Below, piece by piece: positions 262 through 15,836 of a stretch of 16,131 nt of DNA (positions are counted from its first letter, which is position 1; each line of letters begins with the position of its first letter). The notes beneath the pieces were generated by a model. The model was not told the DNA's origin and did no database searches. It saw nothing but the letters and a program-made list of their open reading frames with translations. Source of the stretch: Chloroflexi bacterium UBA5177 (GTDB taxonomy: Bacteria > Chloroflexota > UBA5177). The stretch lies in assembly GCA_002413265.1 (NCBI GenBank), contig DHWR01000143.1, positions 1-16,131 of the forward strand, read 5' to 3'. Position numbers and translations under genes: made by a program.

Positions 262-321
262 ATTTACGATCCCGGCCCGATATTCAGGGTCTACCCGTCT
301 CCCTAGACTGGGGTCGTAAAT
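262..321 (+). repeat. Long imperfect inverted repeat over the promoter
   Basis: ATTTACGATCCC (262-273) is almost perfectly complementary to GGGGTCGTAAAT (310-321), with one T-G pair in 12. A nested 5-bp arm pairs GTCTA (289-293) with TAGAC (304-308). The arms flank the putative activator half-site and contain the putative -10, so this may be a DNA dyad for a regulator rather than an RNA hairpin, since most of it would lie upstream of the inferred transcription start. Confidence 0.55.
264..309 (+). promoter_or_regulatory. Putative activator site plus -10 of the 356 gene
   Basis: A right half-site CCGAT (277-281) is followed after exactly 22 bp by TAGACT (304-309), the same geometry as at five other promoters in this window. 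The left half-site position (264-268, TTACG) matches the consensus ATCRG poorly, so this would be a half-site or weak site. The 12-mer CGGCCCGATATT (273-284) recurs exactly at 14779-14790 within the mgtA site. The expected transcript would start near 316, about 40 nt before the ATG. Confidence 0.5.
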
Positions 322-355
322 ACGTCTCACAAGAGATTTCGAAAGGGAGCTAATC

Positions 356-958
356 ATGACACGGGAAATCAGATGGAGAATTCTGACCCTTCAAATCGTC
401 GCCACGGTCGTGCTCGCGGTAGTCGCGGGGATCGGCTATTGGGGACACAACTTCACACAGGATCAGGTACGAAGCCAGCTGACCGGGCAGCAGATTGTCT
501 TCCCGCCGGCAAACAGCCCGGCGATTAAAGCGCTGCCGGCGGCAAATGCCAGCGAGATGACGCAGTACGCCGGTCAGCAGATGACGACCGGTGAGCAGGC
601 TCACACTTACGCGCAGAACTTCATCGCAGTCCATCTCAAGGAGATCGGCCAAGGGAAGACTTACGCGTACTGGAGTGGCAAGGCGCTGACTGAGGAGAAG
701 ACGAATCCGAAGCAGTTCGCCATCGATAACGGCATCGCTCTCACACTGTTCCGCGGTGAGACATTGCGATCGCTGCTGCTGAATGCCTGGGCCTTTTGGT
801 TCGTCGGAACCCTGGCACTGTACGCGACCATCGCCATGACGATTGGCGCCGTAGTTGTCTTCTTCGCATTCCTGTACGAACTCCTGTTGGTGCCGAAGCG
901 AGAAGGCGTAGTAGAGCTAAAGGAACTTTCCCTGGGCTCAGCCAGCCCCGTCGCCTAA
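356..958 (+). CDS. Two-helix membrane protein of unknown function
   Basis: The product has 200 residues. A hydrophobic segment at about residues 9-29, preceded by Arg/Lys-rich sequence, is a likely signal anchor. A polar domain follows (about 30-140, with Gln-, Thr- and Ala-rich stretches around residues 70-100), then a second long hydrophobic region (about 143-178) and a short charged C-terminal tail. This predicts a single extracytoplasmic domain held by two helices, with both ends in the cytoplasm. The start is supported by AAAGGGAG 5-12 bases upstream of the ATG. No catalytic or metal-binding motif is visible and I do not recognise the family. It is monocistronic, followed by a strong hairpin at 974-1013. 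Its promoter carries the 22-bp-spaced CCGAT/TAGACT arrangement shared with the stress genes, which suggests co-regulation with them. Confidence 0.85.
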   Translation: MTREIRWRILTLQIVATVVLAVVAGIGYWGHNFTQDQVRSQLTGQQIVFPPANSPAIKALPAANASEMTQYAGQQMTTGEQAHTYAQNFIAVHLKEIGQGKTYAYWSGKALTEEKTNPKQFAIDNGIALTLFRGETLRSLLLNAWAFWFVGTLALYATIAMTIGAVVVFFAFLYELLLVPKREGVVELKELSLGSASPVA

Positions 959-973
959 CGCCGACGCCGTCGA

Positions 974-1013
974 ACAGAAATGGACCCGGCCAGAGAATCG
1001 GGTCCATTTCTGT
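974..1013 (+). terminator. Strong hairpin, probable terminator of the 356 gene
   Basis: ACAGAAATGGACCC (974-987) and GGGTCCATTTCTGT (1000-1013) form a perfect 14-bp stem with a 12-nt loop, starting 16 bases after the stop codon. No T-run follows the stem, so it is not a textbook intrinsic terminator, but the position and strength fit transcript-end formation. Confidence 0.7.
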
Positions 1014-1084
1014 CATCGGGGCGAGAACGACGAATCGCCTCTCTGTTCTTGGTTCCTGGGTATTCAGCCGCAGGAGGGCAATAT

Positions 1085-1130
1085 ATCGGGCGTGCGACCG
1101 ATATCACTGCCGCCCACGGCGGCATAGGTT
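1085..1130 (+). promoter_or_regulatory. Putative activator site plus -10 of the usp genes
   Basis: The perfect dyad ATCGG-N8-CCGAT (1085-1102) extends to seven matching bases per arm (ATATCGG at 1083-1089, CCGATAT at 1098-1104). TAGGTT follows at 1125-1130 after exactly 22 bp. The inferred transcript start is near 1137 and the usp1 ATG is at 1170. No good -35 hexamer lies at the usual distance, as expected for an activator-dependent promoter. Confidence 0.75.
1108..1124 (+). repeat. Short perfect inverted repeat in the usp promoter
   Basis: TGCCGCC (1108-1114) and GGCGGCA (1118-1124) are separated by only CAC. The repeat lies between the ATCGG dyad and the putative -10, so it would be in promoter DNA and not in the transcript. 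It could be an operator for a second regulator. Confidence 0.5.
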
Positions 1131-1169
1131 AGGGGGAAGGAATGGCTCTACGTTTACGGGAGAATGACA

Positions 1170-2107
1170 ATGAGACGGGTGTTAGTGCCCCTTGATGGTT
1201 CCAAGTTTGCGGAGGCAGTGATCTCCGATGCTCGACGGCTGAGCGGCGAAGATGGAGAACTCATTCTGGTCCGCGAAGCGAGCTGGCCGATCCTGCAACG
1301 AGATATCTTCGTCGATACTTCAGCGCTGGCCGTGGAAGACGCCGAATGGTATCTGGAGCGGGAGGCGGAGACTTTGCGCGACGAAGGAATCTCCGTTCGG
1401 ACCCAGTCCCTCATATTGGCCAACGCGGCTTCAGCTATCGACGAAGCAGTCAAAATCTTCCACGCGGATATGATTGCGATCGCGACGCACGGCAGGGCTT
1501 TGCCGGCTAGATTAGTGCATGGGAGACCGCCTGGCGTGCCCTGGCTCACAGTCCCGTACCTGTGCTTCTGCGGCACGTTGAGAGCGATGCCTTGGAGCCG
1601 GCGGCAACTGAAGGGAAGAGACGAATCTTGGTCCCACTTGACGGTTCCGCTTATGCGGAGAAGGCGCTGCCACTTGCACTGGAGCTGGCGGCTGAGTGGA
1701 ACGCTCCTCTGTGGTTGGTTCGAGTGGTCCCCGGGTATCCACTGCGAGACACACCGAACCCCGAAGTGAACCTCATTGCCCGCGCGCATGACGAGGCAGT
1801 GAAAGAAGCGCAGAAATACTTGGAATGGGTGAGCTCTTCTTTACCGGGCGAAGTGCACATCCATGCAGGTTTCGGTCCCATAACCGACGCTCTCGTCGAC
1901 TACGTCAACCGCTTCTTGATTACCGACACCGTCTTAGCGAGTCACGGTCGCACTGGTCTGTCGAGGGTGATTCTCGGCAGTGTCGCAGACGAGCTCATCC
2001 ATCGCCTGCATAGCCCGGTGATCGTCATTCCAGTGCTCGCGGCTGGTCATTTGGAGGAACGGGCAGAAAGTGCCACCCCACGCGAGGCAGGCGTCGGTTT
2101 GGATTAA
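1170..2107 (+). pseudogene. Tandem-domain universal stress protein, frameshifted (usp1)
   Basis: Two UspA domains are encoded in two frames. The first frame starts RRVLVPLDGS and reads correctly to RLVHG; the second picks up as ETAWRALAHSPVPVLLRH and continues through a full second domain (RRILVPLDGSAYAEKALPLALELAAEW, then SHGRTGLSRVILGSVADELI, a Usp nucleotide-binding loop of G-x9-GS form). The break is at the GGG of 1521-1523: one extra G restores a continuous 312-residue protein that aligns end to end with the downstream usp2 (RLVHGGVAWRAL at the same place). I chose ATG 1170 because GGGAG (1158-1162) is well spaced for it and not for ATG 1164. The gap to usp2 is only 10 bases, so the two are one operon. 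A sequencing or assembly error in a G-run is a real alternative to true decay. Usp proteins are ATP-binding or ligand-binding stress proteins of the cytoplasm. Confidence 0.85.
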
Positions 2108-2117
2108 AGAGAAGCAC

Positions 2118-3470
2118 ATGAGACGAGTGCTCGTTCCACTCGATGGATCGCCCGAAGCTGCGTCGATCCTCCCTGAGGCCAAGCGTCTGGCGGGGAAAGA
2201 CGGAGAACTGATCCTTCTACGGGACCCGATTGGCTCCGCATGGAACGGGACGCGTCACGGCACCGACGAGGCTGAGTCAGTCCGGCAAGCGGTCACGGAT
2301 CTGGAAGGCTACGCCGAAGCATTGCGCGTGCAGGGCGCGAGTGTCGAAACGCACGCTCTGGTCATGATTGATCCCGCCTACGCCATAGACAGTGCCGCTC
2401 GTGTCTATCACGCCGATATGGTGGCGTGCAGCACACGTGGAGACGGCCAGCTCGGCCGTCTCGTCCATGGCGGTGTTGCGTGGCGCGCACTGGCCGGCAG
2501 CTCCGTTCCAGTCCTCGTACGGAACGCCGCTCCTCCCTCAGACTATCGATCGATCTTCGCTCCCGAGCCACGGATCATGGTTCCGTTGGACGGCTCGCAG
2601 TACGCGGAGAAAGCCCTGGACCTCGCACAGGAGCTCGCGGCTGAGTGGACTTCCTCAATCTGGCTGGTTCACGTGGTGAGTCACTATCCGGTCACCGGAC
2701 TCGCTCACACGGATACTGATCCGGCTTCCGTCACCGATGAGGAAGCGCGACTTTCTGGAAAGGCCTACCTCGATCAGGTTGGCAAGAGCCTGACTGCAGA
2801 AGTTTACAAGCGTGTACTCTTCGGACCAGTGGCTGAGAGATTGTCGGCCGCAGCCCGCCACTGGAACATTGGTCACGTAGTTATGACGAGCCATGGCAGG
2901 ACAGGATTGAGGCGCACGCTGCTCGGCAGTGTTGCCGATGATCTAATTCGGCGCCTGGATTGCCCGATCATTGTGACCCCGGCACTTGCTGCCGAACGCA
3001 TTCAGCGATCTGTTGCCGGGGAGAAGAGGCCTGCAGCGCCTGATTTCTTGTCCGGGTCCGGTCAATTCGCTCGACGAGCAGAGGGGCCAAATGGAATGGG
3101 CTCACGGCTTGGCCGCATCTTCAGGACCGCGCGAGCAGCTTCGCGCCCTTGCGCCATGGCGCCCACCACAGTTGACGGGCCGACGAGAGCGTCGCCGGCC
3201 ACCCAGACGCGATCGTCGTACGAGGTCGGCGCGGCAGCTAATCCGCCCGCAGCTTGGCGGCGCCAGAGGGTCTGCCACCAGGTTGTCCTGAAGAAGGAGT
3301 TCGGTTTGGTCGACCCGCTCCTGAAGCGGACCCACCATCCGCCGCGTGTTGGCGAGGCTGCGACGGCGAGCCCAACTTCACGGCGCAATGCCTGGCTTCC
3401 CACCTGTGCAGGTGATTTACTCGGTATACCGCTAGCCGTCCAGCGGCGATCGGGAATGGTCCTGCTCTGA
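2118..3470 (+). CDS. Tandem-domain universal stress protein with run-on C-terminus (usp2)
   Basis: The start ATG 2118 (MRRVLVPLDGS) is preceded by AGAGAAG and matches the usp1 start. Domain 1 covers about residues 1-138, and its nucleotide loop is degenerate (STRGDGQLGRLVHGG, lacking the GS). Domain 2 covers about 150-295, with MVPLDGSQYAEKALDLAQELAAEW and SHGRTGLRRTLLGSVADDLI, retaining G-x9-GS. One canonical and one altered domain is common in tandem Usp proteins. Usp similarity ends near residue 300, as expected for a protein of about 300 residues, but no stop follows in frame until 3468-3470, giving 450 residues. The last roughly 135 residues are Arg/Pro/Ala-rich and lie antisense to the convergent flavoprotein gene from 3062 on. 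I infer the original stop was lost: a frame change near 3020-3040 would reach a TGA around 3040. The true C-terminus is uncertain. Confidence 0.8.
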   Translation: MRRVLVPLDGSPEAASILPEAKRLAGKDGELILLRDPIGSAWNGTRHGTDEAESVRQAVTDLEGYAEALRVQGASVETHALVMIDPAYAIDSAARVYHADMVACSTRGDGQLGRLVHGGVAWRALAGSSVPVLVRNAAPPSDYRSIFAPEPRIMVPLDGSQYAEKALDLAQELAAEWTSSIWLVHVVSHYPVTGLAHTDTDPASVTDEEARLSGKAYLDQVGKSLTAEVYKRVLFGPVAERLSAAARHWNIGHVVMTSHGRTGLRRTLLGSVADDLIRRLDCPIIVTPALAAERIQRSVAGEKRPAAPDFLSGSGQFARRAEGPNGMGSRLGRIFRTARAASRPCAMAPTTVDGPTRASPATQTRSSYEVGAAANPPAAWRRQRVCHQVVLKKEFGLVDPLLKRTHHPPRVGEAATASPTSRRNAWLPTCAGDLLGIPLAVQRRSGMVLL

Positions 3471-4906
3471 TCAATGCGCGGCAATGGGAGGTTGACAAAA
3501 TCCACCGCCAGCTCCGAATCGACACGGTAGCCAAGGGCAAAGATTACGCGGCTGACGATCACTCGTTCGGGCACGCCACCAAGGACCTTCGGGAGCCGAT
3601 CGATGCGGTCCTGTCGAGTTCGCCGAAGCAACGCAGAGCAGACCAATCCATCAATGCCCGCCAATCGCTCAACGGTGGTCGTGAAGCGAATGGTCACTCC
3701 TTCACCGCGAGCCTCTTCAAGCTCGTCCGGGCGGACGCGAGCGAACCGCTCATCCATCCACTCGACCGTCGTGACCTCGCCACCAAAGCGACGGACGGTT
3801 CGAGCAACGTCCATGGCCGTGTTGCCGCCCCCAAGAACCAAGACGTGAGCGCCGGCTCCCACCTCCGGCAGCGACCTGCCATCTCTGAGAGCCTGCTTTC
3901 CCCGCTCGAGAAACTCACGAGCGTCCTCGACGCCATCCAGCTCGCGGCCGGGAATGGGTGGGACGATCGGCTGAGAAGCTCCGTGAGCCAGGATGACGGC
4001 ATCGTTATCGGCCAGAAGCGCGTCCAGAGAGATATCGCGGCCCACCGAGCATGAGGTCTGGAGCCTGAGACCTGCATTCAACAATGCCTCGATGGGCCGT
4101 CGCATGGGGGCATCGGGAAGCGTGAAGGAAGGAATGCCCCACTGGAGCACCCCACCGGGAACCGCGTCCTTTTCGAGCATACGGACCGTCGCTCCCGCCT
4201 GTAGTAGCTCCCAGGCTGCTGCACAGCCCGCGGGCCCCGATCCAACTACGGCGACTGAGAGCCCATGGCCGTCCTTCCAGGCTCGCTTAACGGCCGGCAC
4301 CGTCCGGTTGTCGGCGACGAACCGCTCCAGGAGGCCGATGGAGACAGGTCGTTCGCCCGCAAGAGCCCAAGAGCAGGCCCCTTCACACTGCACACTCTGA
4401 TCGCAGACCCGGCTGCAGACATCCGGGAGGATACTCGTCTCCTGCAGGATCTCGTGCGATTTTTCAAGATTCCGTTCTCGTATGGCGGAGATGAAGCCGG
4501 GGATGTCGTTGTGCGCTGGGCACCCTTCCATACAGGTCGGATCAGGACAATTCAAACACCTGTCCGCCTCGAGTAGCGCGTGCGGCCAGTCAGAGAAGCC
4601 CTGACGCACCTCGCCGGTTTCGCCGAGGATACTGTCGAAGTGGAGGGGGGCTGGTTCCTGACGTGCTGCGACTACGACGGGCCCCGTGACGGCAACTGCC
4701 GTAAAGGGACAGACCCGCTCGCATTGACGGCAGCCCACACATAAGTTGTCATTTGCCTGTGCGATCCAGTTCTCAGAATCAAGAGTCAGGGCGCCGGTCG
4801 GACACCGGATGATGCACTCCTGACACCCCGCGCAACGCTCCCGGTTGATGTGGACGAAGGCGTGTTCAGGCGTTCTGTCAAATCCAGTCAACGGTTGGGC
4901 GATCAT
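3062..4906 (-). CDS. Ferredoxin/GltD-like FAD-NAD(P)H oxidoreductase
   Basis: The product has 614 residues. The N-terminus carries two 4Fe-4S ferredoxin motifs (C25/C28/C31/C35-P and C56/C59/C62/C66-P). A GltD-type cysteine domain follows (CLNCPDPTCMEGCP from C117, and C164/C168/C174/C178), then an FAD Rossmann motif (VVGSGPAG, 220-227), an NAD(P)H motif (VLGGGNTAMD, 357-366) and the closing flavin motif AGDALVGPSTV (570-580). The family passes electrons between NAD(P)H, FAD and Fe-S partners; glutamate synthase small subunit and NfnB-type proteins share this core. No large GltB subunit is nearby, so glutamate synthesis is unlikely. ATG 4906 is chosen because AAAGGAGC sits 9 bases upstream; an upstream in-frame ATG at 5020 lies inside napH. 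A Trp/Arg-rich stretch of about 45 residues (about 520-565) just before AGD is unusual. The gene follows the polyferredoxin gene by 76 bases and probably forms an electron-transfer unit with it. Confidence 0.88.
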   Translation of the reverse strand: MIAQPLTGFDRTPEHAFVHINRERCAGCQECIIRCPTGALTLDSENWIAQANDNLCVGCRQCERVCPFTAVAVTGPVVVAARQEPAPLHFDSILGETGEVRQGFSDWPHALLEADRCLNCPDPTCMEGCPAHNDIPGFISAIRERNLEKSHEILQETSILPDVCSRVCDQSVQCEGACSWALAGERPVSIGLLERFVADNRTVPAVKRAWKDGHGLSVAVVGSGPAGCAAAWELLQAGATVRMLEKDAVPGGVLQWGIPSFTLPDAPMRRPIEALLNAGLRLQTSCSVGRDISLDALLADNDAVILAHGASQPIVPPIPGRELDGVEDAREFLERGKQALRDGRSLPEVGAGAHVLVLGGGNTAMDVARTVRRFGGEVTTVEWMDERFARVRPDELEEARGEGVTIRFTTTVERLAGIDGLVCSALLRRTRQDRIDRLPKVLGGVPERVIVSRVIFALGYRVDSELAVDFVNLPLPRIDQSRTIPDRRWTASGIPSKSPAQVGSQALRREVGLAVAASPTRGGWWVRFRSGSTKPNSFFRTTWWQTLWRRQAAGGLAAAPTSYDDRVWVAGDALVGPSTVVGAMAQGREAARAVLKMRPSREPIPFGPSARRAN

Positions 4907-4982
4907 AACCGGTGCTCCTTTCGGCACCTGGTGACTCGCAGCAATGCCCTCATTCTCACACCAACCTCCGCCGCAGTCTCTC

Positions 4983-6551
4983 TCATGTCGCGGCTCCCAT
5001 AAGCACATAGAGGTAGGCAACGGGGGCGCATACCGCCGCCACTGTGAGGACGACTACGACCCTAAGCCATCCGATATGCGGGGTAAGACGGCTCATATCG
5101 CGAGGAAGGACCTTCATGGTCGCGTAGAGAGTGGCGAGCGCACCCAGTCCAACCACGATCACCTGGCTGATGACGACCCCGTTGGCCGAGAGGATGGAGA
5201 CATTGGCGCCAGACCAGTGGGCGGTGCCGAAGATGTTCCAGCCAAAGCCAAAGGGATCGGAGATGCTGGCAATGACTTTGGGCGCGGAGAACCAGAACTT
5301 CGGGAGCTGTCGGGCCAGATAGTCGGAACCAGTCAGAGGAATAAACGCGTAGGCGAGCGGCATCAGCCAGCTCGTGAATGAGCTCGTCTTTCGTACGCCA
5401 CTGCTTGGCGCCGGCTCGCGCCGGGCGAGGACAGCTCGGAGGAGCCAGACACATCCAGCGAATACGAGCGCGAAGGCCGCGATGAAGCCTACGAAGTCGA
5501 TCGGGTTGGGGTATGCCCAGCCGGTGTGGCTATTCAGCCAACCGTCAAGGTTTGCGTAGATTGGGAGCGCGTTGACCTGCTGAAAGACCACCAGACCAAA
5601 AAGCAACAGGACCGACCAGGCGATGTCAACCCGTCGTCGCAGGGGAGCAATGACCGACGTTAGAGGCTTCTGGACAAAGAAGCCGACATTATTCGATGGG
5701 CAGTTCTTGACGCATTCTGTACAGAGCCCGCACATGAGGTTGGAGGTCGCGCTCCCCGGCCATTCGTACCAAGGGCAGGGATAGCCGCGCTCACTCCCGC
5801 GCATGCAGTCCTTGGTCTCGCAGGTCAGACAGACGTCGCGGTCACGAGTCCGCAGGCCTGCCGCCATGCCGACAGCGCCTACGGTGCCGATCAGCCCCGT
5901 TAGGGGACAGAGGTAGCGGCAGAACGTGCGGCGCTCGAAGACCAGGAACATCACGAGAGCGAAGCTGATGATGAAGAGCACCATGTAGCTCGTGTAGCGG
6001 GGGTCGCCAGGCCCGGCGATACCCCAAAATTCTTCCGCCCACGTCAGAGCAATGAAGGCGCAGATGGCCGGTAAAACGCCGAAACGACTCAAGGCTTGTG
6101 GCCACTTGAGGTTGAGGCCGATGCTCCTGGGACGTCGACCCATGAAGCTCAGTCGCTGGACCCATTCGCCGAAGCCGCCGAACGGACACATGAGACACCA
6201 AGCGCGACCCACACCAACTATCATGACGAAGACCATGCAAAACCAGATGAACCAGGTAACGGCGGTCGCGAAGTTGCGATTCGGATCGGCGGTTCCCAAT
6301 AGCCCTGTAAAGATCACAACCCAGAAGATGATCTGATTTGGCAGAATGGCAAGGAACTGAAACCGCCTGCTCTTCATCGCCCTCATAAGGGGCCTCCCGA
6401 TTACGGGCATGGCGGTGAGCTCGATCACCTGATCAGTGGGAGCGAAGTGGCGTTCCAATCCATTTCTCTGAGGAGGTCGCAACCGGCGCGCGGGTGAATC
6501 CGCGCACGTCGCTTCCTCCGGCCGTTCCAGAAGTTCTACTGGTTTAGCCAT
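4983..6551 (-). CDS. NapH/NosR-like membrane polyferredoxin
   Basis: The product has 522 residues. About five to six hydrophobic segments are interspersed with cysteine motifs characteristic of the NapH/NosR/CcoG group: WCLMCPFG (118-125), CRYLCP (211-216), CLTCETKDC (241-249), and a cytoplasmic-type 4Fe-4S motif CGLCTECVKNCP (274-285). These proteins move electrons between membrane quinol or soluble donors and Fe-S partners. A further membrane region (about 305-375 and 450-518) extends past the minimal NapH length, nearer to the NosR core but without its N-terminal flavin domain. The ATG at 6551 has GGAGG nine bases upstream. It lies directly upstream of the GltD-like gene, on the same strand. 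No nitrate, nitrous oxide or cytochrome oxidase genes are visible, so the acceptor is unknown. Confidence 0.85.
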   Translation of the reverse strand: MAKPVELLERPEEATCADSPARRLRPPQRNGLERHFAPTDQVIELTAMPVIGRPLMRAMKSRRFQFLAILPNQIIFWVVIFTGLLGTADPNRNFATAVTWFIWFCMVFVMIVGVGRAWCLMCPFGGFGEWVQRLSFMGRRPRSIGLNLKWPQALSRFGVLPAICAFIALTWAEEFWGIAGPGDPRYTSYMVLFIISFALVMFLVFERRTFCRYLCPLTGLIGTVGAVGMAAGLRTRDRDVCLTCETKDCMRGSERGYPCPWYEWPGSATSNLMCGLCTECVKNCPSNNVGFFVQKPLTSVIAPLRRRVDIAWSVLLLFGLVVFQQVNALPIYANLDGWLNSHTGWAYPNPIDFVGFIAAFALVFAGCVWLLRAVLARREPAPSSGVRKTSSFTSWLMPLAYAFIPLTGSDYLARQLPKFWFSAPKVIASISDPFGFGWNIFGTAHWSGANVSILSANGVVISQVIVVGLGALATLYATMKVLPRDMSRLTPHIGWLRVVVVLTVAAVCAPVAYLYVLMGAAT

Positions 6552-6612
6552 CCAGCCCTCCAGAGGTGAAATTAAAACAGAGTACTTCTATAAACGTTAA
6601 GTCAGTGACTCT

Positions 6613-6625
6613 ACGTGTAGCACGT
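6613..6625 (-). promoter_or_regulatory. Candidate operator before the polyferredoxin gene
   Basis: A perfect 5-3-5 dyad (ACGTG-N3-CACGT) sits 62-74 bases upstream of the napH-like ATG in an AT-rich stretch. The octamer ACGTGTAG contained in it recurs before the rrf2 gene (7451-7458, minus strand). A TTGACG on the minus strand (6651-6646) could be a -35, but the matching -10 is weak. Binding by the neighbouring Rrf2 regulator is a plausible inference only. Confidence 0.4.
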
Positions 6626-6834
6626 TACCATGTTTTTTGGGATCCCGTCAAGAGAGTATTTTTGGCTCAGCCAATTCGGCCAACATGGTGCCGTTCGAGA
6701 CACATTCCGATTCCTGGCTCGACTATGGTTTCGCGGAATCTCACGGAGGCCAGGAGTGCACCAGCGCCTACCTTACTCGCCTTCAGCGAAGCTTGAAAAC
6801 GCGTGCGAGGTGGGCCGGCAGCTTCGGACGAAAG

Positions 6835-7395: not shown

Positions 7396-7450
7396 GAGTC
7401 CCACCTCCCTGGGAAGAAGTAACCGACGACAAACATTATTCAGTAATACA

Positions 7451-7458
7451 CTACACGT
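7451..7458 (-). promoter_or_regulatory. ACGTGTAG motif in the rrf2 promoter region
   Basis: The octamer ACGTGTAG on the minus strand, 56-63 bases upstream of the rrf2 start, matches the one in the dyad before the polyferredoxin gene. Here only one arm is conserved (the other reads TGTAT instead of CACGT). The AT-rich TATTACTGAATAAT just downstream could supply a -10. An autoregulatory operator is possible. Confidence 0.35.
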
Positions 7459-7844: not shown

Positions 7845-7862
7845 ATCGGGTGGAGACCTGAT
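7845..7862 (+). promoter_or_regulatory. Orphan ATCGG-N8-CTGAT site before the hsp20 remnant
   Basis: ATCGG (7845-7849) and CTGAT (7858-7862) with an N8 spacer GTGGAGAC. The fuller form ATCGGGT-GGAG-ACCTGAT is nearly a perfect dyad, and GTGGAG is also the start of the spacer in the site before the intact hsp20 (15727-15732). No TAnnnT box lies 22 bp downstream, so the promoter seems to have lost its -10, consistent with the adjacent gene being a remnant. Confidence 0.65.
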
Positions 7863-7868
7863 TTTTGA

Positions 7869-8093: not shown

Positions 8094-8243
8094 GATCCAC
8101 TCCCAAGCAATGAGGATCCCCCTCCCGCTCTCGAAGGGAGATCCTTCTAACTGGCGCTAGCCCATTCGGAAGCGATTTGCCATTTCGGGGGCTGAGGAGA
8201 CCCCGGCCCCGTGCCACCAACCCCCGTGGGAGAACCTCCCGTT

Positions 8244-10604
8244 CTACAGAACACGTAAGGATGAGGTGCTGGTGATCTCGTCCAAGCGCGTATCGCGGAT
8301 GCCTGTGACCTGGATTCGCACACCGGGTTGGAGATCGGACAGGGATCCCTTCTTTCCGTTCTTCAGGATGATGTGAGCGCCGGGATCGAGATCCACGAGG
8401 AAAGGTCGGTTCCCGAAGCGCACGGTGTAGACTCGGCCCGCTTTGCCGAGATTGAAATCACCGGTGCCGTCCTGCCCCACGCCGAAGATGACGCCACGAT
8501 GATTCTTGAAGGACACAAGATCCGTGTCTTTCACGGTCGTCGCCCTGAAAACCAGTTGGTGTTGAGGGTCTGGCACGGCCGCTACCGTGAGCCTGTCTCC
8601 CGAGCGCATATCGGACAGGGCGGCGGCACGTCCACCGGTCATGGAGATGTGCGTGCTGCCCGACAGCGTGAGAGTGGCAACGTCCCCCGCTTGAGTGCGC
8701 ATTCTCAACTCAGTCTGCCCGCGCACTGTCGATATCTTGAGCATCGTGCCGGTGAGGCTCTTCTGGGCAGACTTTTTGCCGACGTGTAGAACCCGTACGA
8801 CCCGGACAGAGCTTGCGGTGGTAACTTCGCCGGTACGCTTATTGAGCAAGCCCGTTACTCGCACCTGAAGTCCAGCCCGCAGATCCGAGAGCGATCCTTT
8901 CCGGCCATTCTGGCGGGTGATCTGTGATTTCGGGTCCAGGTCGACCAACAGCGTGCGCTTGACGAAACGTACCGTGTACGCCCGTCCTTCCTTACCGAGG
9001 TTGTAGTCTCCCGTGCCTTCGGCCCCCACGTTCACGATGACGCCTGTTTGATTCTTGAATGGAACCAGATCCAAGTCCGTCATCGTATTGACCCCGTATA
9101 CGAGTGCGTGTTGCGGATCCGGCCGAGCCGAGACAGAGACGTGGTCGTCGGTTCGCAGGTCGGCAAGTGAGGCCCGCCCGGCGGTTGCGTAGATGGGCGT
9201 CCCGCCCAGGAGCAGAAGGGTGGCTATGTCGCCTCCTTTAACCCGCATCCGCACTTCGACATTGGCGCGGGTCACGGTCAGCTTGAGTATGTTTCCGCTG
9301 ATGGTCGTCTTGATGTTCTTGTCCCTCGCCGGACACGACTGATGAAGCAGGAGCGGTGGCAGCGGGCTCTGCGTGAAGTCCAGGGAGGACAAGAGAGACG
9401 GCGCCGTACGATCGTGGACATTTAGAGCAGGCAGATGAAAATCTTGCTCGACAAACTTCAGGATCGACGTGAAGTCCATGGTGTGGTGATCGACGTACCC
9501 CGACCTCGCGTAGGGCGATATGAGGATGGTAGGGACACGTGGGCCGAGGCTGATGTGGTCGCGGACGGGTGGCGCCATATGGTCGTAGAACCCTCCGAAA
9601 TCGTCCCAGGTGAGCACGATCAGCGTCGACTTCCAGTACTTGCTCTGCATCACTGAATTGATCTGCTGGTCGACCCAGCTTTGACCCACGCAGATACTGT
9701 ACGGGGGATGGTCGCTCAGCTCCTCTGGAGCCACGAGCCAGCTCACCTGTGCCAGCTTGCCGGCCTTCACATCATTGGCAAACCGCGTGTAGGCGGGGAC
9801 GTTCGTTTTCCAGAGCGACGAATCGCGGATATGCTTTATGGCATCGAACGAAGACCAGACGTAGCCGGACTTGTACTGCCCGGGAGCGTAGTAGTTCCAT
9901 GACGTGTAGTGCTTCTGGAAGGTGTCGGCCATGGTCGTCATGTTGAAGCAGGGCTTGGTCTCGTAGTTTCGGCCCGTTTTCGGGTCCATGGCACTCACCA
10001 GCGAATATGGCCCGGCATCACATCCCCACGCGTGAAAGGTCTCGCCCGACGGATTGTCCACCACGTTTGAGGAGGAGGCCGCAATCGTTATCAGGTGGTT
10101 AGGAAAGCTGGGGCCCATGATGGTCGAGAAGAAATGATCGTCAAGTGCAAACGTCTGAGCGTACTTCCAGTAGCTGGAAATGTCTTGCTGCGCGTATCGA
10201 GACGTCGCTACATCAACTCCGTTCTGGATAGCTCCGGGAAGGATGTTGAATTGGTTCATCTTGCCGCTGTTGACGGCGAGAGCGGCTGAGCCACCAGAGT
10301 GGTCGATATCGAGCAAGGTGTGATCGGGCGTGTGTCCGAGTTTCACCACCTTTCCGGTATCTATACGTGCCGTTGACGCGCCGGAGGCTCCGGGAAAGTT
10401 GCCGAAGAGATTGTCGAAGCTATGGTTCTCTCGGACCAGAATCACAACGTGATCGATGGGGTATGCGGGCTTGGGTGACGTCGACGCACTGATGGGAGAC
10501 GAGCTCGCGGGAGCGACGACGCCGGCTGACCAGCCGCTCCAGAGTGTCAAGAGAACGGCAAATAAACCCAGGGCGATAGCAAGTCTAAAAGCGGTGCGCT
10601 GCAT
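8244..10604 (-). CDS. Secreted phosphoesterase (AcpA/PLC-type) with duplicated C-terminal region
   Basis: The product has 786 residues. The N-terminus is a signal peptide (basic start, hydrophobic about 8-31) followed by a Ser/Pro linker. The catalytic phosphoesterase domain (about 50-415) shows [19 protein letters not shown] (50-68), MGPSFPNHL (163-171), [16 protein letters not shown] (331-346) and [18 protein letters not shown] (356-373). By analogy with acid phosphatase AcpA and bacterial phospholipase C, E59/N60, S166 and D334/D335 are likely metal and catalytic residues. After residue 430 comes a region of about 350 residues that is a clear duplication with a period of about 183 residues (see finding). 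GGGAG lies 8 bases upstream of the ATG. The export signal puts it outside the cytoplasmic membrane. The substrate could be phosphomonoesters or phospholipids. A short GC hairpin (8228-8240) lies just after the stop. Confidence 0.9.
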
Positions 10605-10699
10605 CGTGTGCTCCCTTGACGAAGAATGAATCTAGGCCCTGTTCCGGCGGTGGAAGTCAAAACGGGTCCCCAAGAGGCCGGCCACAGTACGGACAGCTC

Positions 10700-10745
10700 A
10701 ATCTAGGTGCGAAGCGAATACGCCGGTATCGGTTATCCGCCCGAT
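10700..10745 (-). promoter_or_regulatory. Putative activator site plus -10 of the phosphoesterase gene
   Basis: The perfect dyad ATCGG-N8-CCGAT (10728-10745), read on the minus strand, is followed after exactly 22 bp by TAGATT (10705 down to 10700). The inferred transcript start is near 10693, leaving a leader of about 89 nt before the ATG at 10604. No consensus -35 hexamer is visible. Confidence 0.75.
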
Positions 10746-10794
10746 GTTTTCGTCCCTCAGACCCGAAGTTTCCCGTGCTTGCCAGCCGATATGC

Positions 10795-10832
10795 GACGGG
10801 ACAGGCCAACCTCCTCGTTGACCTGTCCCGTC
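10795..10832 (-). terminator. Hairpin terminator after the alcohol dehydrogenase gene
   Basis: GACGGGACAGGCCAAC (10795-10810) pairs with GTTGACCTGTCCCGTC (10817-10832): an 11-bp perfect stem, one C-A mismatch, four more pairs, and a 6-nt loop. It starts 26 bases past the dehydrogenase stop codon. No T-run follows on the minus strand. Confidence 0.7.
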
Positions 10833-10857
10833 ATGTCGCGGGCCGGTGCCCTCGGCC

Positions 10858-11961
10858 TTAGAACACTATGAGTGGCTTCACTATGCCGTCGAGCTTCTTG
10901 TCCATGAAGTCAAAGGCCACGTTCAGCTCACCGAAGGGGAAGGTGTGAGTGGTCATGAGCGTCGGATCAACGCGGCCGTTCTCGATGACCTTGAGCAACC
11001 GCTGCATGCGCAGGCTGCCCCCAGGGCAGAGCCCGTTGACGATCGATTTTTCGGACATCCCTACACCCCAGCCGAGGCGGGGAACATGCAGGAAGTCTCC
11101 TTTGCCGTGATAGCCAACGTTTGCAATCGTGCCGCCTGGCTTGGTCACCGTGATCGCATTCTGGAATGTAATGTCGGAGCCCAGAGCCTCGATTGCCGAA
11201 TCGACACCCTTGCCGTTGGTGAGGTCGAGAATGGCTTCGATCGGATCGACCTTGCTGAAGTCGACGATCACGTCTGCACCGTACCCGCGAGCGAGCTCCT
11301 GACGGTGGGGGACTGAGTCGACGCCGATGATCAACCCCGCGCCTCGCAACCGCGCACCGGCGACCGCCATGAGGCCCACGGGTCCCAGAGCGAAAACGGC
11401 AACCGTGCCACCGATTGGAATGTTGGACAGCTCAGCGCCCAGGAATCCGGTCGAAAGCATGTCGGCGCAGTAGACGGCAGCGTCGTCGGAAACAGCGTCC
11501 GGAATCTTCGCCATGTTCGCGTCGGCCTGGTTGACGTGGAAGTACTCCGCAAAGACTCCGTCTTTGATGTTGGCAAACTTCCAGCCCCCAAGGGCTTCAT
11601 TCGACTGAGACGAATGGCCGGCCTGAGAGGCTTCGTCGAACCAGTCGGGTGTGATTGCTCCAACCAGCACGCGATCGCCAGGCTTGAAGTTCTTCACCAG
11701 TGACCCAACCTGGTAGACAACACCTACCGCCTCGTGACCGAGGGTGAGATTCTCTCGGGGCCCGATGGCTCCGTTCACCGTGTGGCTGTCCGAGGTGCAG
11801 ATTAGGGCGCGCGTCGTCTTGACGACCGCGTCCGTAGGTCCCGCCGTGGGGATCGGTTTGTCGGAGAAGCCGACCTTGCCCAAGCCGTTCATTACGAACG
11901 CCTTCATGGTCCCGGTGGCAAGGACCTCTTCCCGCGTGAGCTCCTCTGTCGTAACACTCAT
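10858..11961 (-). CDS. Zinc-dependent secondary alcohol dehydrogenase (medium-chain)
   Basis: The product has 367 residues and resembles the Thermoanaerobacter-type isopropanol dehydrogenase along its length: MKAFVMNGLGKVGF, ICTSDSHTV, LGHEAVG, FKPGDRV, GGWKFANIKDGVFAEYFHVNQADANMA, TGFLGAEL, KPGGTIANVGYHGKGD, LCPGGSLRMQRL. Expected zinc ligands are C55, H76 and D167. The Rossmann loop is ALGPVG (191-196). At the cofactor-deciding position after the second strand the sequence is GVDSVP (D215), where the NADP-specific thermophile enzymes have Gly-Ser-Arg; the acid predicts NAD(H) preference. ATG 11961 is chosen for AAAGGAGAT upstream; this adds 18 residues before the usual MKAF start. It is transcribed from its own promoter between mgtA and itself. 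It likely interconverts secondary alcohols or aldehydes with ketones or alcohols during low-oxygen or stress metabolism. Confidence 0.9.
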   Translation of the reverse strand: MSVTTEELTREEVLATGTMKAFVMNGLGKVGFSDKPIPTAGPTDAVVKTTRALICTSDSHTVNGAIGPRENLTLGHEAVGVVYQVGSLVKNFKPGDRVLVGAITPDWFDEASQAGHSSQSNEALGGWKFANIKDGVFAEYFHVNQADANMAKIPDAVSDDAAVYCADMLSTGFLGAELSNIPIGGTVAVFALGPVGLMAVAGARLRGAGLIIGVDSVPHRQELARGYGADVIVDFSKVDPIEAILDLTNGKGVDSAIEALGSDITFQNAITVTKPGGTIANVGYHGKGDFLHVPRLGWGVGMSEKSIVNGLCPGGSLRMQRLLKVIENGRVDPTLMTTHTFPFGELNVAFDFMDKKLDGIVKPLIVF

Positions 11962-12004
11962 CGCCTTATCTCCTTTGTGGCGAGGATGTTCCCCGCACAC
12001 CTGA

Positions 12005-12050
12005 AGCGTATGCGTGAGTAAAGGACACCCGCATCGGGTCAACACCTGAT
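12005..12050 (-). promoter_or_regulatory. Putative activator site plus -10 of the alcohol dehydrogenase gene
   Basis: On the minus strand the dyad reads ATCAG-GTGTTGAC-CCGAT (12050 down to 12033), one base off the perfect palindrome. TACGCT (12010 down to 12005) follows after exactly 22 bp. The inferred transcript start is near 11998 and the leader is about 37 nt. A TTGACC overlaps the site but is not spaced well to a -10 of its own. Confidence 0.7.
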
Positions 12051-12118
12051 ATGCATGGCATCCCGGGCCGAATCCTTGGCCTGTATTGGCGGAGCCCGGG
12101 CCGCGGGCCTCTTGTCGA

Positions 12119-14668
12119 CTAAGCGGCGAAGTGACGGTAGAACCAGCGCTTCACTGTCTCGACGAGAGCCAGATAAGTGACCACGGCCCCCAGTAGAAAT
12201 GCGAAGAAGCCAGGGGGCAATGGCACGAAACCCAGAGTATGTGCCACAGGAGAAAACGGAAGGATGAAGGCCACTGCGACGGCAGCTAAGATCGTCGCCA
12301 CGAGAGCCTTGCTCGGTCGACTGCGCCACGGAGAGGCAGAAGTGCGGATCACGAGAATTACAAGCGTTTGGGTAGCCAAAGATTCCGCAAACCAGCCCGT
12401 ATGGAACAGCTGTGCCGAGCTGTGGAAGATCCAGAGCAGGGCCCCGAACGTGAGGAAGTCATAGATGGAACTGATCGGTCCGACGACGAGCATGAAGCGC
12501 TGAATGAAGCGAATGTTCCAGCGCTTGGGGTTCTGGAGATAGTCGTCATCTACATGGTCGCCAGGTATGGTCAGCTGCGAGAGATCATAGAGGAGGTTGT
12601 TCAACAGGATCTGAAGCGGCAGCATGGGGAGGAAGGGCAAGAAGAGGGTGGCTCCGGCCATGCTGAACATGTTTCCGAAGTTGGAACTGGTTCCCATCAT
12701 GATGTACTTCATGATGTTTCCGAAGCTGCGCCGGCCCTCGAGCACCCCCTCGTGAAGAGCGCTCAGGGAGCGTTCGAGCAGAATGATGTCCGCCGCCTCC
12801 CTCGCCACGTCGACCGCCCCGGCAACCGAGATGCCGACATCGGCGTTGTGCAGCGACGGCGCATCGTTAATTCCATCACCCATGAAGCCAACCACGTGAC
12901 CACGCCGTCGGAGGGCCGCCATGACGCGGTTTTTCTGTTCGGGAGACACCCGTGCAAAGACGGTGGTACGCTCAGCGAGCGCTCCCAGTGCGGCATCGCT
13001 GGCAGCGTCGACGTCCGGTCCAAGAACCATCACCGCTTCGTCAAGTCCCACCTGGCGGCAGATGGTCCGAGTGACGAGCTCGTTGTCGCCGGTCATGATC
13101 TTGACAGTGATGCCGGCTCGCCGCAACTGATCGAGAGTCTGCGCAGCACTCTCCCGAGGCGGGTCCAGGAAGCAGGCAAAGCCTACAAACGTGAGAGCGG
13201 CTTCATCGTCCACTGAATAGGCGGACCGGCGATCCACGCGTCGAAAGGCGACAGCAAGGACACGATACCCATCGCGACTGAGCTCCTGAAAGGTCTCTGC
13301 GGCTGTCTTGCGTTCCTTGTCGCCGAATGTTTCAACGGCTTCGTCAAACTGGCAGTGCGAGCAAGCGGGCAAAACGCTTTCAGGCGCTCCCTTAGTCACT
13401 AGCAGAGGCTGGCCACCGCCGATCACGACAACCGATGATCGTCTCCTTCTAAAGTCGAATGGAATCTCGTCGAGCTTCGAGTACGAAGCCATGTCAGGGT
13501 GGCGATGCTGCACTATGGCGTCGTCCATGGGGCTTTTGATGCCTGTTTCGAACGCCCCATTGAGAGCTGCATACAGCAGAACCTGCTCGCACTGCGCTCC
13601 CTTTGCGTCGACATAGCGCTCGAGCGTGATACGACCTTCGGTGAGGGTGCCAGTCTTGTCGCTGCAAAGGATGTCCATCGAACCGAAGTTTTCGATAGCT
13701 GCAAGACGCTTGACTATGACCTTTTTGTGAGCCATCCGTAGAGCGCCGCGTGCCAGAGTCACCGACATGATCATGGGCAGGAACTCAGGAGTAAGGCCCA
13801 CGGCAAGAGCAATGGCGAAGAGGAATGATTCGAGCAGAGGGTCGTGCTTGATGATCGCGGTCACCACGAACACGAACAGAACCAGGAAAAAGACGGTCCT
13901 GGTAATCAGGAGTCCGAAGGCTCGTGTTCCTCGCTCGAACTCGGTCTCCGGTGGTCGAGCGGCTAGATGGTGGGCAACGCCGCCAATCTGGGTCGAGCGA
14001 CCAGTATGCACCACCAGGGCAGTTGCGGCACCGCTAATCACGGACGTGCCGAGAAACACCGCCCCCGCGGAGTCGCCTGTGGCGCCCGGGCTCTGAGACG
14101 GCTGGACTGCTTTCTCTGCGGGCAGCGATTCTCCTGTGAGAGCCGCCTCGTCGGTGAATAGATCGTGTGCTTCCAGCAGTCTCCCGTCGGCAGGTATCAG
14201 GTCTCCCGCGGCAAGCCGTATGACGTCGCCAGGGACGACTTCAGCTCGAGGAAGTTCTGACCAGTCGCCATCTCGGAGGACAGTAGCCGTGGAAACGACG
14301 GACTGACGCAGGCGATTGGCCGCCTGCTGAGAATGAAATGCCTGAAGGAAATTCAAGGCGACGCTGACGACGACCATGACTGAGATCAATCCAGCGTTGA
14401 CGTACTCGCCAAGAACCCCGGATACGATGGCCGCGAAGAGAAGGATCAGGACTAGCGGGTTCACGAAGAAGCGGAGGATTTCCAGAGCCATCACGCCGTG
14501 GCGGCGGTCGAGTTCGTTGGCACCGTACCGAGAGAGACGTTGTGCCGCCTCTGCAGATGAGAGGCCGGCAGGCGTAGCATCCAGCTCGCGGCACAGTTGC
14601 TCGGGGGGTCTGAACCAGGAGGGCCCGGATCCAGGAGCGTTCGGAGGGGCCGTAGGGGCGACTGACAT
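12119..14668 (-). CDS. mgtA: MgtA/MgtB-type P-ATPase (P3B, probable Mg2+ importer)
   Basis: The product has 849 residues, a normal length for the family. Motifs in order: actuator-domain TGES (178-181), M4 motif VGLTPEFLPMI (290-300) typical of Mg transporters (P3B), phosphorylation site SDKTGTLT with D337, nucleotide-domain KGAPE (426-430), MTGDN (525-529) and hinge GDGINDAP (597-604). A region with NNLLYDLSQLTIPGDHVD (690-707) matches the M6 area of MgtA proteins. Four hydrophobic segments lie before the nucleotide domain and about six after it. The family imports Mg2+ (also Ni2+) across the inner membrane. No MgtC gene or leader peptide is visible in this window. GAGG lies a few bases before the ATG. 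It shares a divergent control region with the response regulator gene, which carries a stress-regulon dyad facing this gene, so induction by that regulator rather than only by low Mg is likely. Confidence 0.93.
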   Translation of the reverse strand: MSVAPTAPPNAPGSGPSWFRPPEQLCRELDATPAGLSSAEAAQRLSRYGANELDRRHGVMALEILRFFVNPLVLILLFAAIVSGVLGEYVNAGLISVMVVVSVALNFLQAFHSQQAANRLRQSVVSTATVLRDGDWSELPRAEVVPGDVIRLAAGDLIPADGRLLEAHDLFTDEAALTGESLPAEKAVQPSQSPGATGDSAGAVFLGTSVISGAATALVVHTGRSTQIGGVAHHLAARPPETEFERGTRAFGLLITRTVFFLVLFVFVVTAIIKHDPLLESFLFAIALAVGLTPEFLPMIMSVTLARGALRMAHKKVIVKRLAAIENFGSMDILCSDKTGTLTEGRITLERYVDAKGAQCEQVLLYAALNGAFETGIKSPMDDAIVQHRHPDMASYSKLDEIPFDFRRRRSSVVVIGGGQPLLVTKGAPESVLPACSHCQFDEAVETFGDKERKTAAETFQELSRDGYRVLAVAFRRVDRRSAYSVDDEAALTFVGFACFLDPPRESAAQTLDQLRRAGITVKIMTGDNELVTRTICRQVGLDEAVMVLGPDVDAASDAALGALAERTTVFARVSPEQKNRVMAALRRRGHVVGFMGDGINDAPSLHNADVGISVAGAVDVAREAADIILLERSLSALHEGVLEGRRSFGNIMKYIMMGTSSNFGNMFSMAGATLFLPFLPMLPLQILLNNLLYDLSQLTIPGDHVDDDYLQNPKRWNIRFIQRFMLVVGPISSIYDFLTFGALLWIFHSSAQLFHTGWFAESLATQTLVILVIRTSASPWRSRPSKALVATILAAVAVAFILPFSPVAHTLGFVPLPPGFFAFLLGAVVTYLALVETVKRWFYRHFAA

Positions 14669-14741
14669 TCCCCATCCTCAGCACCGATTTGACTGCTCAG
14701 CCGCTGTGACCTACACCTGGCTTAGAGAGCAGACATGCGAC

Positions 14742-14787
14742 ATCCTAAGCGACACGGCTGCGGTTCTCCATCGGCTCTCGGCCCGAT
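14742..14787 (-). promoter_or_regulatory. Putative activator site plus -10 of mgtA (divergent region)
   Basis: The perfect dyad ATCGG-N8-CCGAT (14770-14787), read on the minus strand, is followed after exactly 22 bp by TAGGAT (14747 down to 14742). The inferred transcript start is near 14735 and the leader about 67 nt. Facing the response regulator, no TAnnnT lies at 22 bp (nearest is TAGTTC at 19 bp), so the site seems to serve mgtA, though it may also affect the divergent gene. Confidence 0.75.
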
Positions 14788-14800
14788 ATTTGCACGTGTG

Positions 14801-14817
14801 CCAACGTAGTTCGTTGG
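14801..14817 (+). repeat. Dyad before the response regulator gene
   Basis: CCAACG (14801-14806) and CGTTGG (14812-14817) form a perfect 6-bp inverted repeat with a 5-nt centre. A neighbouring GCACGTGTGC (14792-14801) and CCGCATGCGG (14833-14842) are also palindromic. These could be operators for the divergent control region; nothing identifies the binding protein. Confidence 0.4.
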
Positions 14818-14874
14818 CGACTAGCACGGAATCCGCATGCGGTTGCATGATGTACGAGGAGAAGGGACCGACGC

Positions 14875-15525
14875 TTGGACACAACTGTGCTCCTCGTAGA
14901 CGATCACGCAATCCTGCGTGAGGGGCTGCGCATGGTTCTCGACGCCCAGCCGGGAATCAGTGTTGTGGGCGAAGCTGAGGACGGACGCCACGCCGTGGAG
15001 ATGGCGGAGCGGCTGCGACCTCAAATCGTGGTGATGGACATCGCCATGCCCAATCTCAACGGGGCCGAAGCAACCAGACAGATCAAGCGCCGCTTCCCGG
15101 GTACGAGAGTCCTTATCCTGACGATGCACGAAAACCGAGAATACCTCGCGCAGATCGTGGAGGCGGGGGCAATCGGCGCCGTGCTGAAACGGGCGGCGGG
15201 TACTGAATTGGTTGAGGCCGTGAAAGCTGCGGCGCAGGGGCGTAGCTTCTTCTCACCAGCGATCGCCACGATGATGCAGGAAGATTACCGATTTCAATTG
15301 TCTAAAGAGGGCCGGGACGAGGCGGAGCATCTGACGGCGCGCGAGCGGGAGATCCTGCAGCTCGTGGCCGAGGGCAAGAGTAACCGAGACATGGCGACCA
15401 TCCTGGATCTCTCGATCAAGACCGTACAGACGCACCGCGCCCATCTGATGCACAAGCTGGATGCCCACGACCGAATGGACCTGGTCAAGTACGCGATTCA
15501 GCACGGAATCATTGCCGCTCCGTAG
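14875..15525 (+). CDS. NarL/FixJ (LuxR-type) response regulator
   Basis: The product has 216 residues. The receiver domain (about 4-120) has the acidic pair D9/D10, phospho-acceptor D55 (VVMDIAMP), T83 and K105. The LuxR-type helix-turn-helix covers about 152-208 (LTAREREILQLVAEGKSNRDMATILDLSIKTVQTHRAHLMHKL). The family consists of two-component transcription factors that dimerise on inverted or direct repeats; DosR/DevR belongs to it. The start is TTG 14875: GAGGAGAAGGG (14856-14866) is placed for it, and the nearby ATGs at 14847 and 14850 are out of frame. No histidine kinase gene is in the window. Its position among genes that share the ATCRG-N8-CYGAT promoter module makes it the leading candidate for the activator of that module; this is inference. 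Confidence 0.93.
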   Translation: MDTTVLLVDDHAILREGLRMVLDAQPGISVVGEAEDGRHAVEMAERLRPQIVVMDIAMPNLNGAEATRQIKRRFPGTRVLILTMHENREYLAQIVEAGAIGAVLKRAAGTELVEAVKAAAQGRSFFSPAIATMMQEDYRFQLSKEGRDEAEHLTAREREILQLVAEGKSNRDMATILDLSIKTVQTHRAHLMHKLDAHDRMDLVKYAIQHGIIAAP

Positions 15526-15531
15526 CGAACG

Positions 15532-15563
15532 AAGGAGAACGCCGGCTTAGCCAGGGGCTCCTT
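15532..15563 (+). terminator. Weak hairpin after the response regulator gene
   Basis: AAGGAG (15532-15537) can pair with CTCCTT (15558-15563), followed by T then CCC, with an inner GGC-TTA-GCC stem inside. It begins 7 bases after the stop codon. The outer stem is short and the T-run is only three bases, so this is a low-confidence terminator. Confidence 0.35.
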
Positions 15564-15642
15564 TCCCAGACCGCAGAGTGGCTAGCAACCAGTGGCGGAT
15601 GGACGAGTAACGCTGCTCTACGCCGCTGCCATGCTCCCCAAC

Positions 15643-15660
15643 ATAGGTTCGTCACCCGAT
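15643..15660. promoter_or_regulatory. Second, weaker dyad upstream of hsp20
   Basis: ATAGG-N8-CCGAT, one mismatch from the consensus dyad, lies 62 bp (edge to edge) upstream of the better placed hsp20 site. No TAnnnT box is at 22 bp on the plus strand. On the minus strand TAGAGC (15620 down to 15615) is at 22 bp, but no gene follows there. It may be a distal auxiliary binding site, as is common for DosR-type activators, or chance. Confidence 0.4.
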
Positions 15661-15721
15661 TTTTGGCTCGATCGCCTCTGGTGAAGACGGTCGGCTGAAC
15701 TCGTACACGGACGTGGGAAAT

Positions 15722-15767
15722 CTCAGGTGGAGGACTGATAGCGGTTCAAGCACGCGGAACCTACAGT
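15722..15767 (+). promoter_or_regulatory. Putative activator site plus -10 of hsp20
   Basis: CTCAG-GTGGAGGA-CTGAT (15722-15739) is a slightly degenerate copy of the dyad, with TACAGT (15762-15767) after exactly 22 bp. Spacer bases GTGGAG also occur in the site before the hsp20 remnant at 7845. The inferred transcript start is near 15774, giving a leader of about 63 nt. Confidence 0.65.
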
Positions 15768-15836
15768 AAGGCCATGAAAGCGAGCAGCGTGGCTTCAACC
15801 GAAGAGTCAATACTCCGAGTTCGCAAAAGGAGAAAC

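Follow-up and report, generated by a model that had tools for sequence, protein, structure and literature searches.

What reads a promoter pattern that recurs before several genes on one bacterial contig, and what does it switch on? The question is raised by positions 1 to 16,131 of the contig DHWR01000143.1 of Chloroflexi bacterium UBA5177 (assembly GCA_002413265.1), called the window here. A sequence-only reading had described a 46-bp module (ATCRG-N8-CYGAT, 22 bp, TAnnnT) before six genes of the window. We propose, with a probability of about 0.7, that a NarL-family response regulator uses this module as its operator and thereby activates a regulon for survival at low oxygen. The sequences confirm the module, and show it to be both larger and more widespread than first noted. 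Our own handles for loci, contigs, genomes and families (L, C, G and f, with numbers) are used where needed.

The module and its fixed spacing

The genome of UBA5177 (3.03 Mb in 321 contigs, 88.9% complete) was searched with the full 46-bp pattern, with the reversed pattern as control. Twelve exact modules were found, against none for the control; at up to two mismatches the counts were 130 and 35. A strict dyad, MTCRGGY-N4-RNCYGAT, searched regardless of its spacing to any box, gave 32 oriented matches representing 26 distinct dyads, against one control match. A TAnnnT box lies exactly 22 bp away from 17 of these 26 dyads (52 orientations), and any other spacing between 5 and 43 bp occurs at most twice. 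Coding DNA, where the sequence-only reading had suggested looking for matches that would speak against the motif, was checked in part with a simple caller of open reading frames (ORFs; at least 100 amino acids), and the motif stood: 15 of the 17 strict dyads with a module fall outside called ORFs, though 85% of the DNA examined is inside them. Of the nine strict dyads that lack a module, four are inside ORFs, and the other five include window position 7845, L049 7760 and L051 998.

The sites are spread over ten contigs (C26, C35, C145, C205, C223, C248, C261, which is the window, C301, C314 and C320), so that the regulon is not confined to this segment as had been supposed. A weight matrix built from 22 sites of this genome was used to score the sites, and the phylum counts given below are from pattern searches.

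In the window, the modules and two further intergenic dyads are as follows.

264..309, plus strand: module 1, degenerate left half, before a gene for a 200-residue membrane protein; box TAGACT at 304-309
1085..1130, plus strand: module 2, exact; box TAGGTT at 1125-1130
10700..10745, minus strand: module 3, exact; box TAGATT at 10700-10705
12005..12050, minus strand: module 4, exact; box TACGCT at 12005-12010
14742..14787, minus strand: module 5, exact; box TAGGAT at 14742-14747, dyad at 14770-14787
15722..15767, plus strand: module 6, one mismatch (CTCAG); box TACAGT at 15762-15767
7845..7862, unstranded: strict intergenic dyad, neither side with a TAnnnT box at 22 bp
15643..15660, unstranded: extra intergenic dyad ATAGG-N8-CCGAT, 79 bp upstream of the module 6 dyad, no TAnnnT at 22 bp

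All six modules, their boxes and the 22-bp gap in each were found as first described, as were the three dyads that read exactly ATCGG-N8-CCGAT, the G directly after the left half-site in five of six, and the degenerate left half at 264. The full pattern is matched by four of the six (1085, 10700, 12005 and 14742). With up to one mismatch, the window has 11 matches to ATCRG-N8-CYGAT where 2.23 are expected, an approximately fivefold excess that none of 200 shuffles reached; the 11 matches comprise five of the six earlier dyads (264 being absent), the two additional dyads listed above, and four intragenic matches, each with one mismatch, at 2922, 3449, 10323 and 16095. Module 1 is the weakest site, with a score of 10.7, where two reversed-control matches in 111 kb scored above 9. 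We accept it because the site carries an upstream half-site, TCAGGC, and because its gene has a relative in L060 (139 of 199 residues identical) that is preceded by a full module.

Three of the dyads without a box, namely window 15643-15660, L049 7760 and L051 998, each have the dyad of a full module 79-86 bp away (85-86 bp for the latter two). Extra dyads so placed are possibly distal binding sites.

With the box taken as the -10 element, the dyad spans -52 to -35, and both the class II activator position and the absence of a -35 hexamer are borne out.

A third element upstream of the dyad

The 22 sites of the weight matrix were aligned together with four weaker ones, 264 included. Upstream of the dyad, these 26 sites are conserved at positions -21 to -18 (T in 23, C in 20, R in 23 and G in 18) and at -16 (C in 18), and A is found at -2 in 25 of them. 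The conserved word, TCRGnC, repeats the left half of the dyad exactly 22 bp upstream of it, and played no part in the selection of sites. TCRG begins at -21 in 14 of the 26 sites and at any other position from -80 to -5 in at most two; in related loci the corresponding values are five of six sites and at most one. The module is thus longer than the 46 bp originally drawn, since a third half-site extends it upstream. Modules 1 to 4 of the window (264, 1085, 10700 and 12005) carry this half-site, which is partial at 15722 and poor at 14742:

243..248, plus strand: half-site TCAGGC of module 1, 22 bp from the left half of the dyad
1064..1069, plus strand: half-site TCAGCC of module 2
10761..10766, minus strand: half-site TCGGGT of module 3
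12066..12071, minus strand: half-site TCGGCC of module 4
14803..14808, minus strand: poor half-site TACGTT of module 5
15701..15706, plus strand: partial half-site TCGTAC of module 6

Linkage to a NarL-family response regulator

The dyad of module 5 is common to a divergent response regulator gene, on whose side only TTCGTT is found at 22 bp.

14875..15525, plus strand: NarL-family response regulator, candidate binder, with receiver and GerE helix-turn-helix domains

A two-component response regulator had been named as the binder, and this is supported as likely by the linkage of module and regulator, both in loci chosen by the regulator and across the phylum. We fetched 56 loci by the window regulator protein alone, and allowed spacers of 21-23 bp in the module. 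The eight loci at 62% identity or more (98.8 kb) hold 11 dyads and nine oriented modules, on eight distinct dyads, with none of either for the reversed patterns; the other 48 (752 kb) hold six dyads against one reversed, and no module against one reversed. All nine modules fall in L060, L062, L063 and L064, where the regulators have the helix KTVQTHR. The same helix occurs in L061, which has a dyad and no module, and L065-L067 have KTVQAHR and no module. In L064 a module stands directly before the kinase-regulator operon, and in L063 one is found about 420 bp ahead of the regulator gene. Taken together, L060-L067 and L194 contain 17 looser dyads, with boxes at 22 bp in six cases, at 23 bp in four and at 27 bp in one. 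Proteobacteria bacterium Centralia_MAG_338, the source of L060 and L066, appears to belong to Chloroflexota, as the contig number and position of its module match those of G001, from the family of the window.

Among the matches listed, all relatives of the window regulator are from Chloroflexota wherever a taxon is given. Across 301 genomes of the phylum, a looser pattern matched 113 genomes; its reversed control matched 44, and a stricter pattern was thus used for the counts. This strict module gave 56 matches in 32 genomes, against one reversed match. It is present in 26 of 61 genomes that have the regulator at E<=1e-60 and in 6 of the 240 that do not (Fisher 2e-15), and at E<=1e-50 in 29 of 137 and 3 of 164 (Fisher 2e-8), values that overstate independence since the genomes are related and the 1e-60 line was chosen after the data had been seen. 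Some strict matches look incidental, namely one identical sequence shared by G059, G067 and G131 of family f18, and single matches in G063 and G259. Among genomes reached through named loci, two of the four regulator relatives have strict modules (one and two matches); in 32 others, among which five bear titles of Chloroflexi, its classes or Thermoflexus, there was one match each in G305 and G318, and one reversed match in G317.

In distant families, the sites were selected with the 22-bp spacing and so provide no test of it. In L175-L178 (family f18), the module separates a kinase-regulator pair from a divergent cytochrome b gene (Pfam on L175), and in the distant loci L181, L183 and L190 the box precedes similar cytochrome b genes (Pfam on L181). 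Sigma factor genes stand behind the module in L180 (2305-3501, by Pfam) and, as judged by eye, in L192 (3673-4536), L186 and L048 (546-1457); the neighborhoods of L183-L186 were read in part. With the module placed before such factors, which are of the sigma-70 family, the system may feed a sigma cascade in these families. Neighbors of the f23 sites (lipoprotein, glgB and sigma factors, by eye) fit no single function.

The sensor kinase

Two further copies of the regulator are encoded in the UBA5177 genome, one 75% identical (C301) and one 64% identical over part of its length (C58). The C301 copy adjoins a histidine kinase with PAS, GAF, HisKA_3 and HATPase domains (Pfam). The best matches of its GAF domain in the PDB are DosT (2vzw, E 1.8e-36) and DosS (2e-35 to 2e-34), and the next solved match is at 1e-7; DosT and DosS are likewise the closest solved domains for the L060 kinase, at E about 1e-36. 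In DosS, according to PMC4082495, His149 is the heme ligand and Tyr171 the distal residue. The same H-x21-Y spacing is kept in all five GAF kinases examined (L056, L060, L062, L064 and L194), which by sequence would place them with the heme type.

Genes behind the sites

The genes behind the window modules are listed below.

356..958, plus strand: gene behind module 1, 200 residues, judged by eye to encode a membrane protein, without a family in Pfam or NCBIfam
1164..2107, plus strand: universal stress protein (usp) gene, frame broken into two overlapping ORFs, Pfam match on the first
2118..3470, plus strand: second universal stress protein gene, two Usp domains
8244..10604, minus strand: phosphoesterase-family protein behind module 3 (Pfam)
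10858..11967, minus strand: zinc-type alcohol dehydrogenase behind module 4 (Pfam)
12119..14668, minus strand: cation-transporting P-type ATPase behind module 5 (Pfam)
15837..16131, plus strand: gene behind module 6, family unconfirmed

Pfam agrees with the initial labels of usp, phosphoesterase and alcohol dehydrogenase. For the gene called mgtA it confirms the class of cation P-type ATPases, and the label hsp20 finds no confirmation, the 98 visible residues having no Pfam or NCBIfam match above cut-off.

Elsewhere in the genome, usp genes follow sites in L051 and L053, as they do in the window. Other targets are a CsoR-type metal-sensing repressor, an ABM-domain protein, an operon for 2-oxoacid (pyruvate-type):ferredoxin oxidoreductase, and an F-type ATPase operon that begins with the beta subunit; beta and alpha are confirmed, and score above 600 bits to the alternate F1F0 models, below the cut-offs of about 750. 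A P-type ATPase is the second gene behind the L052 site. Sites also precede an oligopeptide-binding protein, a pyridine-nucleotide-disulphide oxidoreductase, which looks like a sulfide:quinone reductase, and a radical SAM/SPASM protein followed by the heme A synthase CtaA. Weaker sites stand before cytochrome b (score 15.5) and before a usp gene (score 10.5) that is divergent from acetate kinase and phosphoketolase. Behind several sites the proteins belong to no family, while the sequence behind two others (L050 163 and L052 124) runs to the end of the contig. In L194 (5856-10208), from a genome of the same order (G005), a kinase-regulator pair is followed by genes that by eye resemble acetate kinase and phosphoketolase.

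This gene set is similar to known low-oxygen survival islands. Its content suggests a role in energy metabolism and under low oxygen no less than in the stress response named initially.

Comparison with known systems

The core of the DosR box is covered by GGGMC-N4-GKCCC, a pattern that we wrote to include the OsdR core as well. In the UBA5177 genome it occurs at 19 places, against 17 for its reversal, in agreement with the sequence-only reading that the module is not a DosR box. In the window, at one mismatch, the DosR-type core occurs six times against 4.08 expected, a count equaled in 40 of 200 shuffles. As the core is enriched neither in the genome nor in the window, identity with the DosR or OsdR box was rejected.

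The kind of system, consisting of a gas-sensing kinase, a NarL regulator and a usp-rich regulon, is already known from Mycobacterium and Streptomyces. DosR/DevR with DosS/DosT of Mycobacterium shares with the present case a NarL-family regulator, a DosT/DosS-like GAF kinase and usp genes in the regulon. At DevR promoters, PMC3029386 describes a proximal site that overlaps the -35 region and a weaker neighboring site that is bound cooperatively, a layout that would fit the strong dyad and weaker upstream half-site seen here. The DosR residues K179, K182 and N183 contact bases, and K182Q lowers binding (PMC5999986); they align with K, Q and T in the window regulator, and the changes of K182 to Q and N183 to T would be in keeping with a different DNA word. 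Among solved structures the regulator is closest to VraR (149 bits), followed by NarL (123) and DevR (109), so that DevR is not the nearest. The system would thus appear to work like DosRST, yet to be no DosR member as judged by box, contact residues or nearest relative.

OsdR/OsdK of Streptomyces coelicolor has a predicted regulon with usp, alcohol dehydrogenase and a sigma factor, and many usp genes lie near the system, according to PMC5069765; the OsdR consensus given there, AGGGCCGATCGGCCCT, differs from MTCRGGY-N4-RNCYGAT. Some sources label relatives of the window regulator NreC. NreC of Staphylococcus and Bacillus binds GC-rich palindromes under oxygen control (PMC8139620) and activates sulfur-oxidation genes in B. 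licheniformis (PMC9918477). Its partner NreB senses oxygen through an iron-sulfur cluster (PMC8139620); the kinase here has PAS and GAF domains, the latter DosS/T-like. Among the papers listed by searches of the openly licensed literature, we found no report of the operator, the third half-site, their spread in Chloroflexota, or a DosR-like regulon or such a gene set in this phylum; passages of PMC10991733 and PMC8199190 are unrelated, and those of PMC10034137 and PMC12919924 gave no letters for a box.

Proposed mechanism and alternatives

The reading that best accommodates these results is a DosR-like low-oxygen activator system with an operator of its own. In such a system, the C301 kinase would sense O2, NO or CO through a heme bound to its DosS/DosT-type GAF domain, and would phosphorylate the window regulator, the C301 regulator, or both. 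A dimer of the phosphorylated regulator would bind MTCRGGY-N4-RNCYGAT at -52 to -35, in place of a -35 hexamer, and a second dimer would occupy the half-site TCRGnC two helical turns upstream; acting as class II activators, the two would bring in RNA polymerase. Predicted to be switched on are usp, the 2-oxoacid:ferredoxin oxidoreductase and ATPase operons, P-type ATPases and alcohol dehydrogenase, as well as the pyridine-nucleotide-disulphide oxidoreductase, heme A synthase and cytochrome genes. What is observed directly is the three-part site (the module in its fixed geometry and the third half-site), the set of genes behind it, its linkage to the regulator and the similarity of the GAF domains, including His and Tyr, and the identity of the acting paralogue, the binding, phosphotransfer, heme, signal and activation are what we infer from them.

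Several observations weigh against this reading, in addition to the overstated independence of the phylum counts. The window regulator has no adjacent kinase, and with three such regulators in the genome (100, 75 and, over part, 64% identical) the acting copy is ambiguous. Of the 61 genomes whose regulator match reaches E<=1e-60, 35 have no strict module, and in 6 of the 32 module-bearing genomes no regulator match is that good. In G005, from the same order, the regulator is present and the scans gave no module, although its locus L194 has dyads, one with a box at 23 bp. In distant families, TCRG is found at -21 in two of 19 sites, with equally many at -22, and is not clearly enriched. The genome also encodes three HTH_Crp_2 genes above cut-off, and the kinase of L175 (f18) has a weak HAMP match and no GAF domain by Pfam.

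The last of these points bears on an alternative in which the response regulator does bind the dyad, but the GAF kinase detects some other ligand or a redox state, and the regulon serves as a general response to energy or membrane stress. P-type ATPases among the targets, and the sigma factor of L180 in another family, would suit this, and the L175 kinase indicates that the box outlives a change of sensor. We nevertheless regard it as unlikely: for the two kinases searched, no other solved domain comes near the heme GAF domains of DosS and DosT in similarity, His and Tyr are kept in all five GAF kinases examined, and anaerobic and respiratory genes are among the targets.

The HTH_Crp_2 genes raise a different alternative, namely that a Crp/Fnr-type activator (FixK- or ANR-like) occupies the dyad and controls low-oxygen genes from a class II position, with the response regulator as a mere neighbor and target. 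Class II position and gene content suit Fnr-type control, and in related loci the module precedes the regulator gene (L063, about 420 bp upstream, on a 5.2-kb contig in which no kinase was found) or lies just upstream of the kinase-regulator operon (L064), as expected of a target. Yet the Fnr box is TTGAT-N4-ATCAA, from which ATCRG-N8-CYGAT differs in both arms and spacing; neither this box, already doubted by the sequence-only reading, nor the Crp-type site TGTGA-N6-TCACA is matched in the alignment of 26 sites. Moreover, the box tracks the regulator across families and in loci picked by the regulator alone, and we consider Crp/Fnr-type control quite unlikely.

An origin of the module by chance or as a mobile repeat, with no role in regulation, is very improbable: short degenerate motifs can accumulate by chance and the site-bearing contigs may belong to a few genomic islands, but the window shuffles, the 12 exact modules against no control match and the spacing test reject this origin, the third half-site is independent, and the spacers differ in sequence, so that the module is not a copied repeat.

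For the DosR-like activator system, a wider proposal can be made tentatively, at somewhat less than even odds. Chloroflexota may have a dormancy or low-oxygen code of their own that predates the split of the families, TCRGnC-N16-MTCRGGY-N4-RNCYGAT-N22-TAnnnT, read by a NarL-family regulator whose helix KTV[Q/D]THR departs from DosR at base-contacting positions; a DosS-like kinase would then drive DosR-like genes through a different word, and distant families would keep the word and swap the sensor. If this is true, a largely uncultured phylum gains a readable low-oxygen regulon, and the promoter rule is precise enough for genomes to be annotated from sequence alone. A sensor and targets resembling those of tuberculosis dormancy, joined by a different operator, would be a natural case of regulon rewiring, in which the two routes, sensor kept with the DNA word changed or word kept with the sensor changed, can be tested directly.

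Other features of the window

Behind module 2, the usp gene falls into two overlapping frames (1164-1769 and 1562-2107), by an assembly error or a frameshift. The second usp frame, 2118-3470, overlaps the opposite frame of an iron-sulfur flavoprotein (3062-5020) by about 400 bases; as the flavoprotein family match ends near residue 475, one end of the overlapping frames is probably frameshifted. An Rrf2-type regulator (6838-7404), to which the dyad at 7845 with no box at 22 bp is the nearest strict one, adjoins a membrane protein (4986-6551) in which 4Fe-4S (Fer4_5) domains are found; together they suggest sensing of iron-sulfur or NO.

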